Part shown: positions 34,412 to 51,374 of the stretch, piece after piece
How positions within the stretch are numbered: the stretch's first letter is position 1
Layout: each line of letters starts with the position of its first letter
DNA from: Ilumatobacter coccineus YM16-304
GTDB taxonomy: Bacteria; Actinomycetota; Acidimicrobiia; Acidimicrobiales; Ilumatobacteraceae
Assembly: GCF_000348785.1 (NCBI RefSeq)
Contig: NC_020520.1
Span: forward strand, 3,038,001 to 3,102,000
DNA length: 64,000 nucleotides
Direction of reading: 5' to 3'
Position numbers and translations under genes: made by a program
Notes under the pieces: model-generated
Told to the model about the DNA's origin: nothing
Databases searched by the model: none
Seen by the model: only the letters and a program-made list of their open reading frames with translations

Positions 34412-37162
34412 TCAGTTCACCGGCAGGTCGATCGGTGCACCAGCGGGTGGCAGCGCACTCCACGGCACCGGGCCGAGCCCGGCCTCGCGCCGAACCCGTT
34501 CGGCGTCGAAGAGCGGCGGACCGAACAAGATGCTCTCGGCTTCGCCGACCGGCATCGGACGTGCGAACAAGAAGCCCTGTCCGAGGGTGACGCCCGCCTC
34601 GATCGCATAGGCGAGTTGGTCGAAGGTCTCGATGCCTTCGGCGACGATGTCGAGCGAGAGCGCTCGGCCGATCGTCACGACCGACTCGACGATCGTCGAG
34701 TCGAACTCGTTCGCGGTCGCCGTCGCGATGAAGCTCCGGTCGATCTTCACGACGTCGACGGGCAGCTTCTGGAGGTACGTCATCGACGAGTAGCCGGTGC
34801 CGAAGTCGTCGATGGCGACCTTGACGCCTCGGCTGCGAACGGCGGCGAGCACGTCGCTCGCCCGCTCGACGTCGTCGAGCAGTTGCGATTCGGTCAGCTC
34901 GATCTCGAGCAGGCCCGGATCGGCGCCGGTGGCCGCCAGTGCTGCGTCGAGGTCGGCCACCAGTTCACCTTCGATCAGATGCCGACCGGAGATGTTGACC
35001 GCGAGCCGCATACCCGCACCCCGACCTGCCAACGTCCACTCGGCGATGCAACGGCACGCCGCCTCGAGCACCCAGCGTTCGAGTTCGAAGATGAGCCCGG
35101 AGCGCTCCGCGATGGGGATGAAGTCGGCTGGGGGAACCAGTCCGACTCCGGGCCGCTCCCACCGCACGAGTGCCTCGGCGCCCGCAGCGTGACCGGTGGT
35201 CATGTCGGCGAGCGGTTGGAGATAGATGCGCAGCTCGTCGTGCTGGATCGCCTGACGCAACGCGAGTTCGAGCTCGGCCTGCTGCTCGATCGAACGCTGC
35301 AGTTCCTTGTCGAACATCTCGACACGTCGTCGGCCGCGGCGCTTCGCCTGATACACGGCCGCATCGGCACGCTCGACCGCGGACATGGAGTGATCTCCGG
35401 GTTCGATCACCGTGACGCCGACACTCGCCGACACACCGAACAGTTGCTCACCGACGACGTAGGGCTGCTCGACCTGTTCGATCATGCGTTCACCGAATGT
35501 GATCAGGTTGCCCGTGTCGGCGACGTCGCTGATGACGATCAAGAACTCGTCGCCACCGAGGCGTGCCACGAAGTCGATCTCGCGGATCGAGCCGCTCAGA
35601 CGTTGGGCGATCTCACGCAACACGACGTCGCCGACCGCGTGACCGTGGGTGTCGTTGACGCTCTTGAAGCCGTCGATGTCGACGAACATCACACCGGTCG
35701 ACGTGACCTTGCCCGACGTCATGCCCGGCTTCGGCAGCGAGCGAAGCTCGCGGTCGAGGTACTCGAGCACGGCGAACCGGTTCGGGAGCCCGGTCAGGTT
35801 GTCGATCCGTGCCTCCTCGGCGAGGCGAGCCTCGCTCGCCTGCAGACGAGCGGTCAGCGCGGTCACGCGCTCCATCGAGGTGCGCATCGAGGCACCGACG
35901 TGCCCCGGGAGATCCTGCAACTCGGGCCCTTCGCCGTTCTCGGCCACGGCGAGCGCCTGCATGTGATCGTCGACGAGCGCGAGCGTGCTGGCCATGTCGT
36001 TGATGGCCCCCGTGACCTTGCGCACGTCGCTCGGACCCGCGAGTTCGAGCGGGTCCGCGGACAGTTCGCCGCTGCTGATCCGCTCGGCTTGGTCGCACAA
36101 GGCATTGAGCGGCTTGGCGAACGACCGGATGACGACCAGACCGAATGCAAGCGACGCGAGTCCGACGGCGGCGAAGAACAGCAGCGTCGACCGGTTGCGG
36201 TCGCTGGCGTTGCGCGCCCAGTCGTCGACTTCACCGCTGACCGCGTCGGCGCGGTCGACGCTGAACTCGGCGACCAGTTCGAGGTACTCGATGTGCCCGA
36301 GCAACGCATCGGTGATGCTGTCGAAGTCGACGGAAGCGAGTGATTCCATGCTGTCGAACGGCGTGGAATCCAGGCCCTCCGGCATGGCGGGCAGATCGGA
36401 GTACACGTTGCGCAACTGGGTGATGGCCACGGGGTCGACGCTCGATGCCGCGTCGAGCGCGTCGACATGGCGGATGCCGTCCGACATCATGTCGGACGGA
36501 GCCGAGGCGCCTTCGCCGAAGACGATGGAGCCGAAGGTCTCGGCCTCTTGCCGCGCGGTGAGGATCACGTCGACGACGAGGTTCAGACGACGCACGAGGG
36601 CGATCGCCTCCGGAGCGACGTACTCGGCGTCGAGCAACGTGCTGTTCGAGCGACTCAGCAGACTCTCGACGTAGGAGAAGGCGTTCTCGAAGCTGCGTTC
36701 GACGGTCTCGAACGTCGCCATGCCGTCGGCCGAGCGTGCCCCCTCGGTCTCGATGAGCTCGCGGATCGCCACGACGTCTTCGCTGCGTTCGACCGTGTCG
36801 GGCGAGGCCAACGACGCCTCGAGCGCGTCGAAGGCGGCGTCGAGACGAACGTCGTTCTCGGCGACCAGCGCGTCGAGGTCGAGGCCCAACATGCTCTTGA
36901 CGAGGTCGGGATCGAGCCCGAGTTCGTGGATTCGAACGAGACCCAACGAGGCGACGCGGTCGACTTCGAGCGGGACCAGGAGCGACGCTGCGCTCGCGTG
37001 GATGGCCGATGCCTCCGACAACGACGACGCCGCGTTGGCCGACTCGTTGTTGCGTTCGATCTCCCGGAAACTGAAGATGCCGACACCCAGCAGCGGGATG
37101 AGCAGGAGCGCGACCACGTAGACGGCGAGCGGCAGTCCTCCGAGGCGGCGCGAAACGAGCAT
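34412..37162 (-). CDS. Membrane GGDEF-EAL protein (cyclic-di-GMP turnover)
   Basis: A 916-residue sensor. It begins with a membrane helix (PLAVYVVALLLIPLLGVGIF), a roughly 280-residue extracytoplasmic helical domain, a second membrane helix, a HAMP-like segment (SFAKPLNALCDQAERISSGELS), then a GGDEF domain with intact ARLGGDEFLIV and an EAL domain with AEALVRWERPGVGLV and DDFGTGYSSMTYLQ. Both active-site motifs look complete, so it may make and break cyclic-di-GMP. The start at 37162 avoids an open-frame extension that runs into the tRNA gene. No receptor or target gene is next to it. Confidence 0.92.
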   Translation of the reverse strand: MLVSRRLGGLPLAVYVVALLLIPLLGVGIFSFREIERNNESANAASSLSEASAIHASAASLLVPLEVDRVASLGLVRIHELGLDPDLVKSMLGLDLDALVAENDVRLDAAFDALEASLASPDTVERSEDVVAIRELIETEGARSADGMATFETVERSFENAFSYVESLLSRSNSTLLDAEYVAPEAIALVRRLNLVVDVILTARQEAETFGSIVFGEGASAPSDMMSDGIRHVDALDAASSVDPVAITQLRNVYSDLPAMPEGLDSTPFDSMESLASVDFDSITDALLGHIEYLELVAEFSVDRADAVSGEVDDWARNASDRNRSTLLFFAAVGLASLAFGLVVIRSFAKPLNALCDQAERISSGELSADPLELAGPSDVRKVTGAINDMASTLALVDDHMQALAVAENGEGPELQDLPGHVGASMRTSMERVTALTARLQASEARLAEEARIDNLTGLPNRFAVLEYLDRELRSLPKPGMTSGKVTSTGVMFVDIDGFKSVNDTHGHAVGDVVLREIAQRLSGSIREIDFVARLGGDEFLIVISDVADTGNLITFGERMIEQVEQPYVVGEQLFGVSASVGVTVIEPGDHSMSAVERADAAVYQAKRRGRRRVEMFDKELQRSIEQQAELELALRQAIQHDELRIYLQPLADMTTGHAAGAEALVRWERPGVGLVPPADFIPIAERSGLIFELERWVLEAACRCIAEWTLAGRGAGMRLAVNISGRHLIEGELVADLDAALAATGADPGLLEIELTESQLLDDVERASDVLAAVRSRGVKVAIDDFGTGYSSMTYLQKLPVDVVKIDRSFIATATANEFDSTIVESVVTIGRALSLDIVAEGIETFDQLAYAIEAGVTLGQGFLFARPMPVGEAESILFGPPLFDAERVRREAGLGPVPWSALPPAGAPIDLPVN

Positions 37163-37223
37163 TGACGCAACATCGGCACTACCCGCCCCGCACTTGAGCC
37201 CGGAAGTGCGACACATTCGGACG

Positions 37224-37237
37224 GTCCCCGAGGGGAC
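37224..37237 (-). terminator. Short GC hairpin just after the tRNA
   Basis: GTCCCC, GA, GGGGAC, starting 3 bp from the 3' end of the tRNA in its direction of reading. No U-run follows. May help release or trim the tRNA transcript. Confidence 0.4.
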
Positions 37238-37239
37238 GG

Positions 37240-37313
37240 TGCCGACGATGGGACTCGAACCCACACTGCCGGCCACCTAAAGACCGTGCCTCTGCCAATT
37301 GGGCTACGTCGGC
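37240..37313 (-). tRNA. tRNA with anticodon UAG, type I (short variable arm)
   Basis: A complete cloverleaf: acceptor GCCGACG/CGTCGGC, D arm GCCCAATTGGCAGAGGC, anticodon stem CGGTC/GGCCG with loop TTTAGGT (U33, anticodon UAG, G37), variable loop GCAGT, T arm GTGGG-TTCGAGT-CCCAT, discriminator A, no encoded CCA. The anticodon reads CUA/CUN leucine codons. Leucine tRNAs of bacteria are type II with a long variable arm, which this lacks, and the D arm is also unlike a leucine tRNA. So the amino acid it carries is open. Located 78 bp upstream of the GGDEF-EAL gene on the same strand. Confidence 0.88.
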
Positions 37314-37409
37314 GCGACTCGCTGAGCCACGGCGCCCAATCTACGGGAGCCACCTCTCGCTGCACGAAGATGCTCCCCCGGCCGGGCGCCCAGTGCGTAG
37401 CCTGCCGAC

Positions 37410-38369
37410 GTGAGCAACGGCGCTCGGTGGGAGCGAATCGGAGAAGCGGTGGCGTGGCTCGTCGTCGCCGCCGTCGGCATGGTGATGCTCACGCAGACCA
37501 TCGGCTCCGACGGAACTCGGCTGATCGCCACGTTGCAGACGCTCACCCCGTACTTCCTCCCGGTCGTCGCCGCGATCGCTGCCATCGCGTGGTGGCGGCG
37601 ATGGCACGGTGTCGGCCTCACGGCATCGGCCGTCGGCACGGCGATCCTGCTGCTCGCGGTGCCGCTCGTCTTCCCGCCGTCGCAGCCTTCGCCTGCCGAC
37701 GGGGCGAGCGGCCTTCGGGTTGGCGCGGTCAACCTGTTGTACTCCAACGTCCGCACCGACGAGGTGGCCGACGAACTCGTCACCCACGACCTCGACGTGA
37801 TCGTGTTCAGCGAGTACACGGCCGAGCACCAGGCGGTGCTGCTCGATCATCCGATCGTCGACGACTTCCCGCATCGGGAGGATCGCGACGGTCTGCAGGC
37901 CGGCGGCATGGCGGTGTGGTCGCGTCATCCGCTGGAGCCCGACACCCCGCCCGGCACGATCAACTACTCGATCGACGTCGTGGCGCAGGGCCCCGACGGC
38001 CCGATCCGCATCCTCGCCGTGCATCCGCCGACGCCGATCTTCAACTTCAGCGGCTGGCGAGACGACCTCGCCCTCATCGGCGACGTCGCGAGTCGCGGCA
38101 CGAGTCCGACCCTCGTGATCGGCGATTTCAACGCCTCGTACTGGCATCCGGTGTTTCGCCGACTGCTCCGGCGAGGGCTGACCGACGCGCACATGGCCAA
38201 CGGTCGTGGATGGTCGACCTCGTGGCCGACCGACGAGTTCGTTCCGCCGTTCGTCCGACTCGATCACGCGTTGACCGGCAACGGGTTGGTGTCGACCGAC
38301 GTCGACAACTTCCGGGTGCCCGGCAGCGATCACACGGGCTTCGTGGTCACCGTGTCGCCAGCTCGCTGA
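37410..38369 (+). CDS. Membrane-anchored endonuclease/exonuclease/phosphatase family protein
   Basis: A 319-residue protein. The first 95 residues hold three membrane helices; the rest is an EEP-fold domain with LRVGAVNLLYSN, VIVFSEYT, TLVIGDFNAS (metal/catalytic DFN) and GSDHTGFVV (final D-H), so the metal-dependent hydrolase site seems complete and should face outside. Such proteins resemble actinobacterial EEP-family phosphodiesterases of unknown substrate. Start is GTG 37410. Its last 23 bases overlap the end of rdgB on the other strand. Confidence 0.85.
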   Translation: MSNGARWERIGEAVAWLVVAAVGMVMLTQTIGSDGTRLIATLQTLTPYFLPVVAAIAAIAWWRRWHGVGLTASAVGTAILLLAVPLVFPPSQPSPADGASGLRVGAVNLLYSNVRTDEVADELVTHDLDVIVFSEYTAEHQAVLLDHPIVDDFPHREDRDGLQAGGMAVWSRHPLEPDTPPGTINYSIDVVAQGPDGPIRILAVHPPTPIFNFSGWRDDLALIGDVASRGTSPTLVIGDFNASYWHPVFRRLLRRGLTDAHMANGRGWSTSWPTDEFVPPFVRLDHALTGNGLVSTDVDNFRVPGSDHTGFVVTVSPAR

Positions 38370-38931
38370 GCAGCGCCCGAAACGCGCGACCCCGATGGGA
38401 GATCGCGTGTTTCGCGTCGGCGCCCATCTCGCTGAACGTGAGACCGTCGGCCTCGTCGGGCACGAAGATCGAGTCGTAGCCGAAACCGCCGTCGCCACGC
38501 TCGGCGGTGGCGATCGTGCCGGGGCAGACGCCTTCGACGGCGAGTTCGGTGCCATCGGGCCAGACGACCATCGCCACGGTCTTGAACGCGGCGCGCCGGT
38601 CGTCGATCCCGCGCAGTTCGTCGAGCATCTTGGCCCGGTTGTCGGCGTACGAGCAGCCCTCCCCCGCGTAGCGAGCGGTGTAGACGCCCGGGGCACCACC
38701 GAGCGCATCGACCTCGAGTCCGGTGTCGTCGGCCACCGCTGGGAGCCCCGTCGCAGCGACGATGGCCGCGGCCTTGAGTCGAGCGTTGCCGACGAGCGTG
38801 TCGGCATCTTCGACCACGTCGGGCACCTCGGCGGGGCGCGGCAGCAGGTCGACGACGTCGGCGAGCAGCGCCTGGATCTCGGCGACCTTGTCGGGATTTG
38901 CCGATGCACAGACGAGCTGCGGGAGCGTCAT
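38347..38931 (-). CDS. rdgB: Non-canonical purine NTP pyrophosphatase (RdgB/HAM1)
   Basis: A 194-residue enzyme that hydrolyses dITP, XTP and related nucleotides to keep them out of DNA. Typical blocks: LVCASANPDKVAEI at the start, DDTGLEVDALGGAPGVYTARYAG in the middle, and FGYDSIFVPDE plus ISHRGRAFRAL at the end. It follows rph by 19 bp, the usual pair. Its 3' end overlaps the convergent EEP gene by 23 bp. Confidence 0.95.
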   Translation of the reverse strand: MTLPQLVCASANPDKVAEIQALLADVVDLLPRPAEVPDVVEDADTLVGNARLKAAAIVAATGLPAVADDTGLEVDALGGAPGVYTARYAGEGCSYADNRAKMLDELRGIDDRRAAFKTVAMVVWPDGTELAVEGVCPGTIATAERGDGGFGYDSIFVPDEADGLTFSEMGADAKHAISHRGRAFRALLSELATR

Positions 38932-38950
38932 GGCGATCTCGGTACTCAGC

Positions 38951-39727
38951 TCAACGCTGCGCGGGGCGCGGTGCCGGCGGTTCGGCGATGACGGCTGCCT
39001 GCGCGTCGGAGATGGTGAGCAGACCGCCCTCGGCGAGACCGACCAGGGTGTCGAGCTGCGAGCGTGAGAACGCCATGCCTTCGGCGGTGCCCTGCACTTC
39101 GACGAAACGAGCCTCGCCTTCGGGCTGACCGTTGGCGCCGACCGAGCGGAGCATGACCACGTTCATGTCGACCTCGGCGGTCGAGTCCTCGATGTACGGG
39201 AGGTCGAGCACGGCGGTGCCGTCGACGATGCCGACGCTGATGGCCGAGCAGAACGAGTGCAGCGGGTTGGCGGCGAGCTCACCGGCGATGACCAGCCGCT
39301 GCAACGCGTCGTGCAGTGCGACGAAGCCGCCGCAGATGCTCGCGGTGCGTGTGCCGCCGTCGGCCTGGAGCACGTCGCAGTCGACGGTGACCTGGCGCTC
39401 GCCGAGCACCTTCATGTCGCACGCAGCGCGCAGCGAACGGGCGATGAGCCGCTGGATCTCGACGGTGCGGCCGCTCTGCTTGCCCTTGGCTGCTTCACGG
39501 CTGATCCGCTCGGGCGAGGCGCCGGGGAGCATCGAGTACTCGGCGGTGACCCAGCCCTTGCCGGAGTTGCGCATCCATCGGGGCACGTCGTCGTCGATGC
39601 TCGCGGTGCACAGCACGCGGGTGTTGCCGAAGCTGACGAGCACGGAGCCTTCGGCCATCTCGGTGAAGTCGCGTTGAAACGAGAGCGGGCGGAGTTCGTC
39701 GGCGGCGCGGCCGTCTGGGCGTGACAT
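38951..39727 (-). CDS. rph: Ribonuclease PH
   Basis: A 258-residue phosphorolytic exoribonuclease that trims tRNA 3' ends. Blocks typical of RNase [21 protein letters not shown] at the start, [48 protein letters not shown], and [19 protein letters not shown] with the phosphate-binding and metal residues. The ATG at 39727 gives MSRPDGR; longer in-frame starts are unlikely. It lies between murI (10 bp upstream) and rdgB, as in Mycobacterium. Confidence 0.96.
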
Positions 39728-39737
39728 GTCGGAGAAG

Positions 39738-40547
39738 CTACCGGCTCGTGGGTGGCCACGGCTCGGTGGCGTCGAGCTCGGGGCCGAGGAGCCGGCTGCC
39801 GAGCTCACGGAAGACGTCGATGTCACCGCTCGAGGCGAACCGATGGACTCCGGTGCGTGACGAAGCCTCGCGCAGCAACCCCTCCTCGGTGAGGCGGCGC
39901 TGCACCGCGAACGCTGTCTCGTCGGCCGAACTGACCAGCGTGACGTCGGGTCCCATCACGTCGCCGATCGTGCGAGCGAGGAACGGGTAGTGCGTGCACC
40001 CGAGGAGGAGGGCGTCGATGTCGGCGCCGACGAGCGGTGCGAGCAGCCGTTCGGCGAGCACGGTCACCTCGTCACCGGTGGTCTGTCCGCGTTCGACGAA
40101 CTCGACGAAGCCCGGGCACGCCGCGCTCGACAGGGAGACAGGCACACCGGTGTCGGCCACGGCGCGCACGTACGCGCCCGACGACATCGTGCCGACCGTG
40201 CCGATCACGCCGACCCGACCGGTCGTGGTGGTGCCGACGAGCGCTCGAGCTCCTGGCCGTACGACGTCGATCACCGGAACGGGAAGTTCGCGGCGGAGTT
40301 CGTCGAGTCCAGCGGCTGTTGCGGTGTTGCAGGCGACCACCACGGCTTTCGCCTCGTAGTCACGCACCAGGCTCCAGGCCAGTTCGTGGGCGTACTCGCG
40401 CACGTCGTCGAGTGGCTTCGATCCGTACGGGTACCGCCCGGTGTCGCCGATGTAGACGAGGTCCTCGTTGGGCAACAGGTCGATCGTGGCCCGAGCCACG
40501 GTGAGCCCACCGAAGCCGGAGTCGAACATTCCGATCGGCCGATCCAT
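39738..40547 (-). CDS. murI: Glutamate racemase
   Basis: A 269-residue cofactor-independent racemase that supplies D-glutamate for peptidoglycan. [14 protein letters not shown] at the start, [11 protein letters not shown] with the first catalytic cysteine, and [12 protein letters not shown] with the second are all intact. The ATG at 40547 is used; the open frame runs far upstream only in shadow of the next gene. It is followed by rph and rdgB in tight spacing. Confidence 0.96.
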
Positions 40548-40603
40548 CGCCCGAGATCCTACGTGGAGCGGCACCGCCCTGATCGTCGGGCGACTCGACG
40601 GGG

Positions 40604-50988: not shown

Positions 50989-51374
50989 GGGGCTGACTGG
51001 TTTCGACGTCAGTAACGCTGTTCGAGTTTGCGACCCGAGTTTCTCAGACTCGTAAAACGGGGAAACCAACAGAATTGCCGATGAGCAGTTCGCTCTCGCC
51101 GCCTGATCTGATCAGGTAGTGAAGAGTCATCGTGAGCAGAAATGTCGCACGGGGCCACTCCATCACAGCCCGGCAACAGAAGTGAGGGATGACGGTGGGA
51201 AAGACCACTGCCAGCGGGAAAGACTGCTGACTTTCAGGAAAGACTGAGCGTGGCAGGCCTCGAGCCTGCAGCCGACCCGTCGGTGTCTCAGCGTCAGAGA
51301 CAATGCCGGGAATGGTCGTAGCAAGCACGTACACCGGCTGATGGACGGGGGTTCGATTCCCCCCAGCTCCACCA
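50989..51374 (+). ncRNA. ssrA: Transfer-messenger RNA (tmRNA)
   Basis: About 386 nt. The 5' end GGGGCTGACTGGTTTCGAC and the 3' end GATTCCCCCCAGCTCCACCA form the tRNA-like acceptor domain (GGGGCTG pairs with CAGCTCC), with encoded CCA. The tag frame reads up to GETNRIADEQFALAA and stops with TGA at 51104-51106; the exact resume codon among 51059-51077 is not certain. The LAA end is the standard ClpXP degron. Works with SmpB (46544-47065) and probably ClpP (20891-21487). Confidence 0.97.

Follow-up and report, generated by a model that had tools for sequence, protein, structure and literature searches.

A type I tRNALeu(UAG) as the only UAG tRNA found in Ilumatobacter coccineus, and its place in an apparent change of structural class among leucine tRNAs of Actinomycetota

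The genome of Ilumatobacter coccineus YM16-304 carries a leucine tRNA gene with the anticodon UAG and a complete cloverleaf, in which the variable loop has only five bases, as in type I tRNAs. It lies on the reverse strand at positions 37240-37313 of the 64,000-nucleotide stretch of DNA analysed here, hereafter the window. This tRNA is a resident leucine tRNA of an unusual class. No other tRNA with its anticodon was found, and it is one case of an apparent switch that touches leucine tRNAs in many Actinomycetota. We consider it very probable that it is the cell's functional tRNALeu(UAG), charged by leucyl-tRNA synthetase (LeuRS) through A73 and the core of the molecule, and that a type II tRNALeu(UAG) once occupied its locus.

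Results

The window corresponds to positions 3038001-3102000 of a single-contig genome (G000) of 4,830,181 bases. ARAGORN called a tRNA-Leu(tag) at 37238-37313 on the reverse strand, and the Rfam model RF00005 matched 37240-37313 over all 71 model positions and scored 50.2 bits (cut-off 29). The parsed gene has 74 bases without CCA. On the same strand, it shows the discriminator A73 (37240), the variable loop GCAGT (37265-37269), the last base of which is U48, the anticodon UAG (37277-37279), and the D arm GCCCAATTGGCAGAGGC with the loop AATTGGCAGA (37288-37304). All seven acceptor pairs and all five T-stem pairs are formed, U33 and G37 are in place, and the long variable arm of a type II tRNALeu is absent. 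The first-pass annotation, made from the letters alone, had described the coordinates, the cloverleaf, the anticodon, U33, G37, the discriminator base and the five-base loop correctly. It had also named beforehand a low-scoring pseudogene as the outcome that would overturn its reading, which is contradicted by the score and the intact stems. The RF00005 score ranks 42nd among the 45 tRNAs of the genome over the cut-off, and the three that score lower are all type II (Ser, Tyr and Ser). A scan for sigma-70-like promoters and terminators near the gene found none.

The RF00005 search of the genome gave, besides these 45 tRNAs, one weak match of 16 bits, and ARAGORN assigned the anticodons at all 45 places. 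Five of them are leucine tRNAs: those with UAA, CAG and GAG are type II, and those with UAG and CAA (the latter at G000:C1:2362783-2362856) are type I. Each of the two type I tRNAs is the sole tRNA found with its own anticodon, and neither a type II UAG nor a type II CAA tRNA was found among the 45. The UAG tRNA is thus not an extra copy, and of the earlier suggestion that the gene encodes an additional leucine tRNA of reduced body, only the reduced body holds.

A passage of PMC9976931 gives A73, A15-U48, G18G19 and A20a as the leucine determinants in E. coli. All of these are present in the UAG tRNA together with the leucine anticodon, the numbering of the D loop being our own, and the D loop itself is identical to that of the type II tRNALeu(GAG) of the same genome, so the earlier description of the D arm as not leucine-like was mistaken. 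Among the 44 parsed tRNAs of the genome (tRNA-Phe was unparsed), the combination of A15, U48 and A73 occurs only in the five leucine, two glutamine and two lysine tRNAs, and the D loops of the two lysine tRNAs are without 20a. In the genome, a single LeuRS exceeded its cut-off of 548.4 bits, with a joined score of 875.5 bits; the remaining matches of this search, far under the cut-off, were taken for related synthetases.

TRNAs of this kind are widespread. A strict motif was found in 23 of 296 genomes of the class and in 33 of 198 genomes of the phylum Actinomycetota, with no match for the reversed control pattern; a looser motif found 59 of the same 198, with one reversed control match in a genome without a true match. 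In a named motif scan, at least 119 bacterial stretches held 122 tRNAs with the motif, all of which have leucine anticodons, with A73 in 122 and U48 in 121 of them. At least 120 viral stretches, one of which had no ARAGORN call, held 124, with leucine anticodons in 122, A73 in 124 and U48 in 122. The exceptions include poorly parsed rows, since fewer than 10 of the 12 counted acceptor and T-stem pairs were formed in 2 of the 122 bacterial and 5 of the 124 viral tRNAs, and U8, A14, A15, G18G19 and A20a are set by the search motif and are therefore not independent evidence in these tRNAs. By their titles, 105 of the at least 119 bacterial stretches belong to Actinomycetota (Mycobacterium, Nocardia, Gordonia, Corynebacterium, Micrococcales and others), 13 to other phyla (Cyanobacteria, Acidobacteria, Planctomycetota, Rokuibacteriota, Chloroflexi and Myxococcales) and one is unplaced, part of the family-to-phylum placements being our own assumption. 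A single tRNA was found in 103 of the at least 119 stretches and more than five in 12. In Mycolicibacterium sediminis JCM 17899, for which all 46 tRNAs found were read, the single UAA tRNA and the single CAA tRNA are both type I, which makes the reading of the two UUR codons dependent on tRNAs of this form.

Two further observations concern other phyla. In the long cyanobacterial tRNA arrays L090, L126 and L131, type I is the form of several or most of the leucine tRNAs, some of which have other D arms. On a Rokuibacteriota contig (L095:384-670), the tRNAs Gly(gcc) and Cys(gca) precede a type I tRNALeu(UAA); this order presumably corresponds to glyW-cysT-leuZ of E. coli, where we take leuZ to be type II, and the locus may be a third case of an in-place switch.

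Type I and type II genes complement each other across genomes. Anticodons were read by eye in 50 genomes with a type I leucine tRNA and in 17 genomes without one among the matches listed; the count covers the 50 of the 59 type I genomes whose type II matches were among those listed. The 50 genomes hold 60 type I slots (39 UAA, 14 CAA and 7 UAG, with neither CAG nor GAG), and in none of the 60 was a type II twin of the same anticodon detected. Where the corresponding type I tRNA is missing, the type II tRNA was present in 21 of 28 genomes for UAA, 40 of 53 for CAA and 44 of 60 for UAG (Fisher test 9e-12, 2e-7 and 3e-4, respectively, with related genomes not being independent). All five leucine boxes were seen in 33 of the 50 type I genomes when GAG or AAG is counted as one. 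A type II AAG tRNA seems to serve the leucine CUY boxes in place of GAG in four genomes read by eye (G087:C56, G293:C118, G003 and G009). Among 19 more genomes of the class, read with a narrower type II pattern, there was one overlap, G243, with a type I CAA, sitting within a 14-tRNA array, and a type II CAA. Because pattern detection of type II genes is incomplete, their absence outside I. coccineus and M. sediminis is a statistical statement. Some cases speak against a strict codon rule. In the named scan, the type I tRNAs outside arrays include a CAG of Nocardia panacis (L105) and a GAG of an Actinosynnema (L158); a CAA and a CAG, both type I, were seen on an Acidobacteria contig (L134).

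The UAG tRNA gene sits in a chromosomal neighbourhood common to its relatives. Divergent from it lies a gene for an endonuclease/exonuclease/phosphatase family protein (37410-38369, forward strand, PF03372), which adjoins the tRNA also in G252 and G039, and downstream on the same strand as the tRNA lies a gene for a HAMP-GGDEF-EAL protein assigned with Pfam (34412-37162, reverse strand). Three reverse-strand genes served as locus markers: a Ham1 family gene (38347-38931, PF01725), an RNase PH family gene (38951-39826, PF01138) and an Asp/Glu racemase family gene taken as MurI (39738-40550, PF01177, with the frame as searched and its start unrefined). When about 12 kb were fetched around the leucine tRNAs of relatives, Ham1 and RNase PH were found in the stretch fetched for all 11 type I and for 16 of the 18 type II tRNALeu(UAG) genes; for the other two (G055 and G043), that stretch is truncated by the end of a short contig. 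The UAG tRNA is thereby positionally orthologous to type II tRNALeu(UAG), and the comparison of orthologues that the first-pass annotation had proposed shows that relatives hold either class at one locus, even within one genus, to which both G019 (type I) and G047 (type II) belong. The CAA gene behaves likewise at its own locus: an acyl transferase gene (PF00698), which we take to be FabD-like, lies within about 1 kb of tRNALeu(CAA) at seven of seven type I and four of four type II loci.

No other credible tRNA lies within 6 kb of the UAG gene by ARAGORN, in contrast to a mobile tRNA array. An ARAGORN tRNA-Ser(cga) at 36782-36875 (forward strand), antisense in the GGDEF-EAL gene, has no Rfam support in the window or the genome and is probably false. 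Farther off, the window contains a tmRNA gene at 50989-51374 (forward strand, ARAGORN and Rfam) with the tag peptide ADEQFALAA. In the relative G153, a tandem array with a period of 70 and 8.2 copies of decayed type I tRNALeu(UAG) abuts the intact gene (L232:1190-1764); it is a tRNA gene turned minisatellite. No such tandem array was found at 36000-39000 of the window.

At the UAG locus the tRNA is type II in the families f2, f3, f7, f8, f27, f32 and f34 (of the order or class, with a marker hit) and in f4, and type I in f9. Because of this distribution, rather than from a reconstruction, type I looks derived there. The two forms differ as packages. In 32 genes compared, the 18 of type I have C12, C13, G23, A26 and five variable bases, with A9 in 17 of them, and the 14 of type II have G9, G12, G or A13, C23, G26 and the long arm, with no intermediates seen among the 32. 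This suggests that the variable region is structurally coupled to the D stem and to position 26. Over 41 stem and T-loop positions (by the script's own count) in family f1, type I UAG genes match type II UAG genes at a mean of 28.4 and type I CAA genes at 22.1, which hints at a change in place; since type II UAG and type II CAA genes are equally close (28.5), the hint is not decisive. In a tree built from 134 tRNAs after masking of the anticodon and removal of the variable region, the type I leucine tRNAs group with leucine, glutamine, some lysine and one asparagine tRNA; with its 67 columns, the tree fits one or several type I origins. Because either class occupies one UAG locus even within a genus, and the same holds for CAA, it seems that type II leucine tRNAs gave way to type I at their own loci and that a single core signature is common to the type I forms.

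The type I cloverleaf is under constraint. In 85 distinct solitary type I sequences (L051-L156), 20 cloverleaf pairs were formed in 1687 of 1700 cells, compared with 1218 +/- 12 and a maximum of 1255 in 500 shuffles (relatedness ignored), and 16 of the 20 pairs are changed on both sides in some sequence. For decoding, we counted leucine codons in 38 open reading frames of the window picked by GC3, a rough set of which at least one is antisense to the GGDEF-EAL gene: among 1219 leucine codons, CUA occurs 4 times, UUA 0 times and UUG 123 times. The CUA codon at residue 105 of the IspG (GcpE) encoded in the window aligns with I, V and F in the best three of four matched structures, and its UUG codon at residue 203 aligns with L in the best three of four. 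The alignment would favour leucine or a similar residue at CUA, weakly on its own, as the aligned residues are hydrophobic and not leucine itself.

Discussion

In the mechanism we propose, the single bacterial LeuRS would charge the UAG tRNA through A73, A15-U48, G18G19 and A20a, features that would need no long variable arm. The tRNA would read the rare CUA codon, and other CUN codons would probably be read by wobble. The locus would once have held a type II tRNALeu(UAG), and the switch would have combined the loss of the arm with a recast core at positions 9, 12, 13, 23 and 26 and in the variable region, either by stepwise change in place or by replacement of the gene with a type I copy. The first-pass annotation had stated that its unusual reading would fall if there were no type II UAG tRNA and the arm had been lost with recognition by LeuRS retained; this is largely the situation found, with recognition by LeuRS predicted from the identity bases. 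Several observations count against our reading: no promoter or terminator was found, the CUA codon of IspG aligns with hydrophobic residues other than leucine, G243 has both a type I and a type II CAA, and A15, U48 and A73 occur also in lysine and glutamine tRNAs.

The last of these bears on the possibility, raised by the first-pass annotation, that the tRNA receives an amino acid other than leucine, which would make CUA ambiguous; the lysine and glutamine systems are candidates. The type I shape and the bases shared with two lysine and two glutamine tRNAs fit such charging, and CUA is so rare in the rough window set that ambiguity would be cheap. We nevertheless regard it as very unlikely: the identity bases of leucine are kept, the D loop with 20a is of the leucine type and differs from that of the lysine tRNAs, and close relatives carry a type II tRNALeu(UAG) at the same locus. 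Moreover, the sister type I CAA tRNA reads UUG, a common codon, and in M. sediminis both UUR tRNAs are type I. Nothing in the analysis points to a change of the genetic code at CUA.

An accessory tRNA from a phage or plasmid that adds nothing essential is more improbable still. Phages and plasmid arrays often carry closely similar tRNAs, yet no second UAG tRNA was found in this genome, the neighbours are chromosomal, and relatives share the locus. Least credible of all is a pseudogene in decay, or else an RNA of tRNA-like form that acts outside the ribosome, a role that the first-pass annotation had entertained and to which nothing points. The low rank of the score, the lack of a predicted promoter and the decayed copies beside the intact gene of G153 would suit decay, but all stems of the UAG tRNA are intact, the stems covary across the type I family, and the anticodon is otherwise missing from the genome.

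The UAG tRNA shares with bacterial type II tRNALeu the anticodon, A73, A15-U48, G18G19, A20a, the D loop and, in relatives, the chromosomal locus, whereas it has a five-base loop in place of the long arm and A9, C12, C13, G23 and A26 in place of G9, G12, G or A13, C23 and G26. A passage of a 2023 review states that the long arm of tRNALeu is kept everywhere but in animal mitochondria. The mitochondrial tRNALeu likewise lacks the arm and is charged by LeuRS via A73 and core bases, as described in part of PMC9976931, but it belongs to an organelle and another lineage, and the UAG tRNA is encoded on the chromosome of a bacterium that also has leucine tRNAs of type II. A section of PMC8450103 (tRNAscan-SE 2.0) describes a human tRNA-Leu-CAA without the long arm, derived from tRNAMet. 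The type I tRNALeu of mycobacterial, phage and plasmid clusters has a short variable loop and a leucine anticodon too, but is extra beside a normal type II tRNA, unlike the resident UAG tRNA. In our literature search a short-loop bacterial tRNALeu was found noted only in an excerpt of PMC6582537, for the cluster tRNALeu(TAG) of Mycobacterium mucogenicum, and earlier reports may exist; none of the excerpts of PMC5733544, PMC5966550, PMC10272220 and PMC8450103 describes a type I tRNALeu that serves as the only isoacceptor in a bacterium.

Searching with the UAG tRNA matched 135 phage records at E <=0.01, of which 102 are mycobacteriophages; 81 records extend over 80% or more of its length, and the matched tRNAs are not necessarily all leucine tRNAs. 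Phages Finemlucis and P318 carry a type I UAG, Wakanda a type I CAA beside a type II UAG, BeanWater type I CAG, GAG and CAA, and a Mycolicibacterium alvei plasmid a type I CAG. Copies of this sort may have supplied the type I body. A more far-reaching version, to which we give little weight, is that they replaced resident type II tRNAs, mostly those of the less used codons (UUA, UUG and CUA), at their own loci, the short form being favoured as enzymes that read the arm (SerRS, nucleases) could no longer act on it. If that were true, mobile elements would repeatedly drive one and the same bacterial tRNA identity from one structural class to another.

Conclusions

In many Actinomycetota, type I leucine tRNAs are the only ones found for one or two anticodons, and annotation that expects the long arm could call such genes misassigned or doubtful. 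Pairs of type I and type II tRNAs at one locus within one genus amount to a natural experiment on which core bases change when the arm is lost, and the same experiment bears on the means by which LeuRS and SerRS discriminate between leucine and serine tRNAs.
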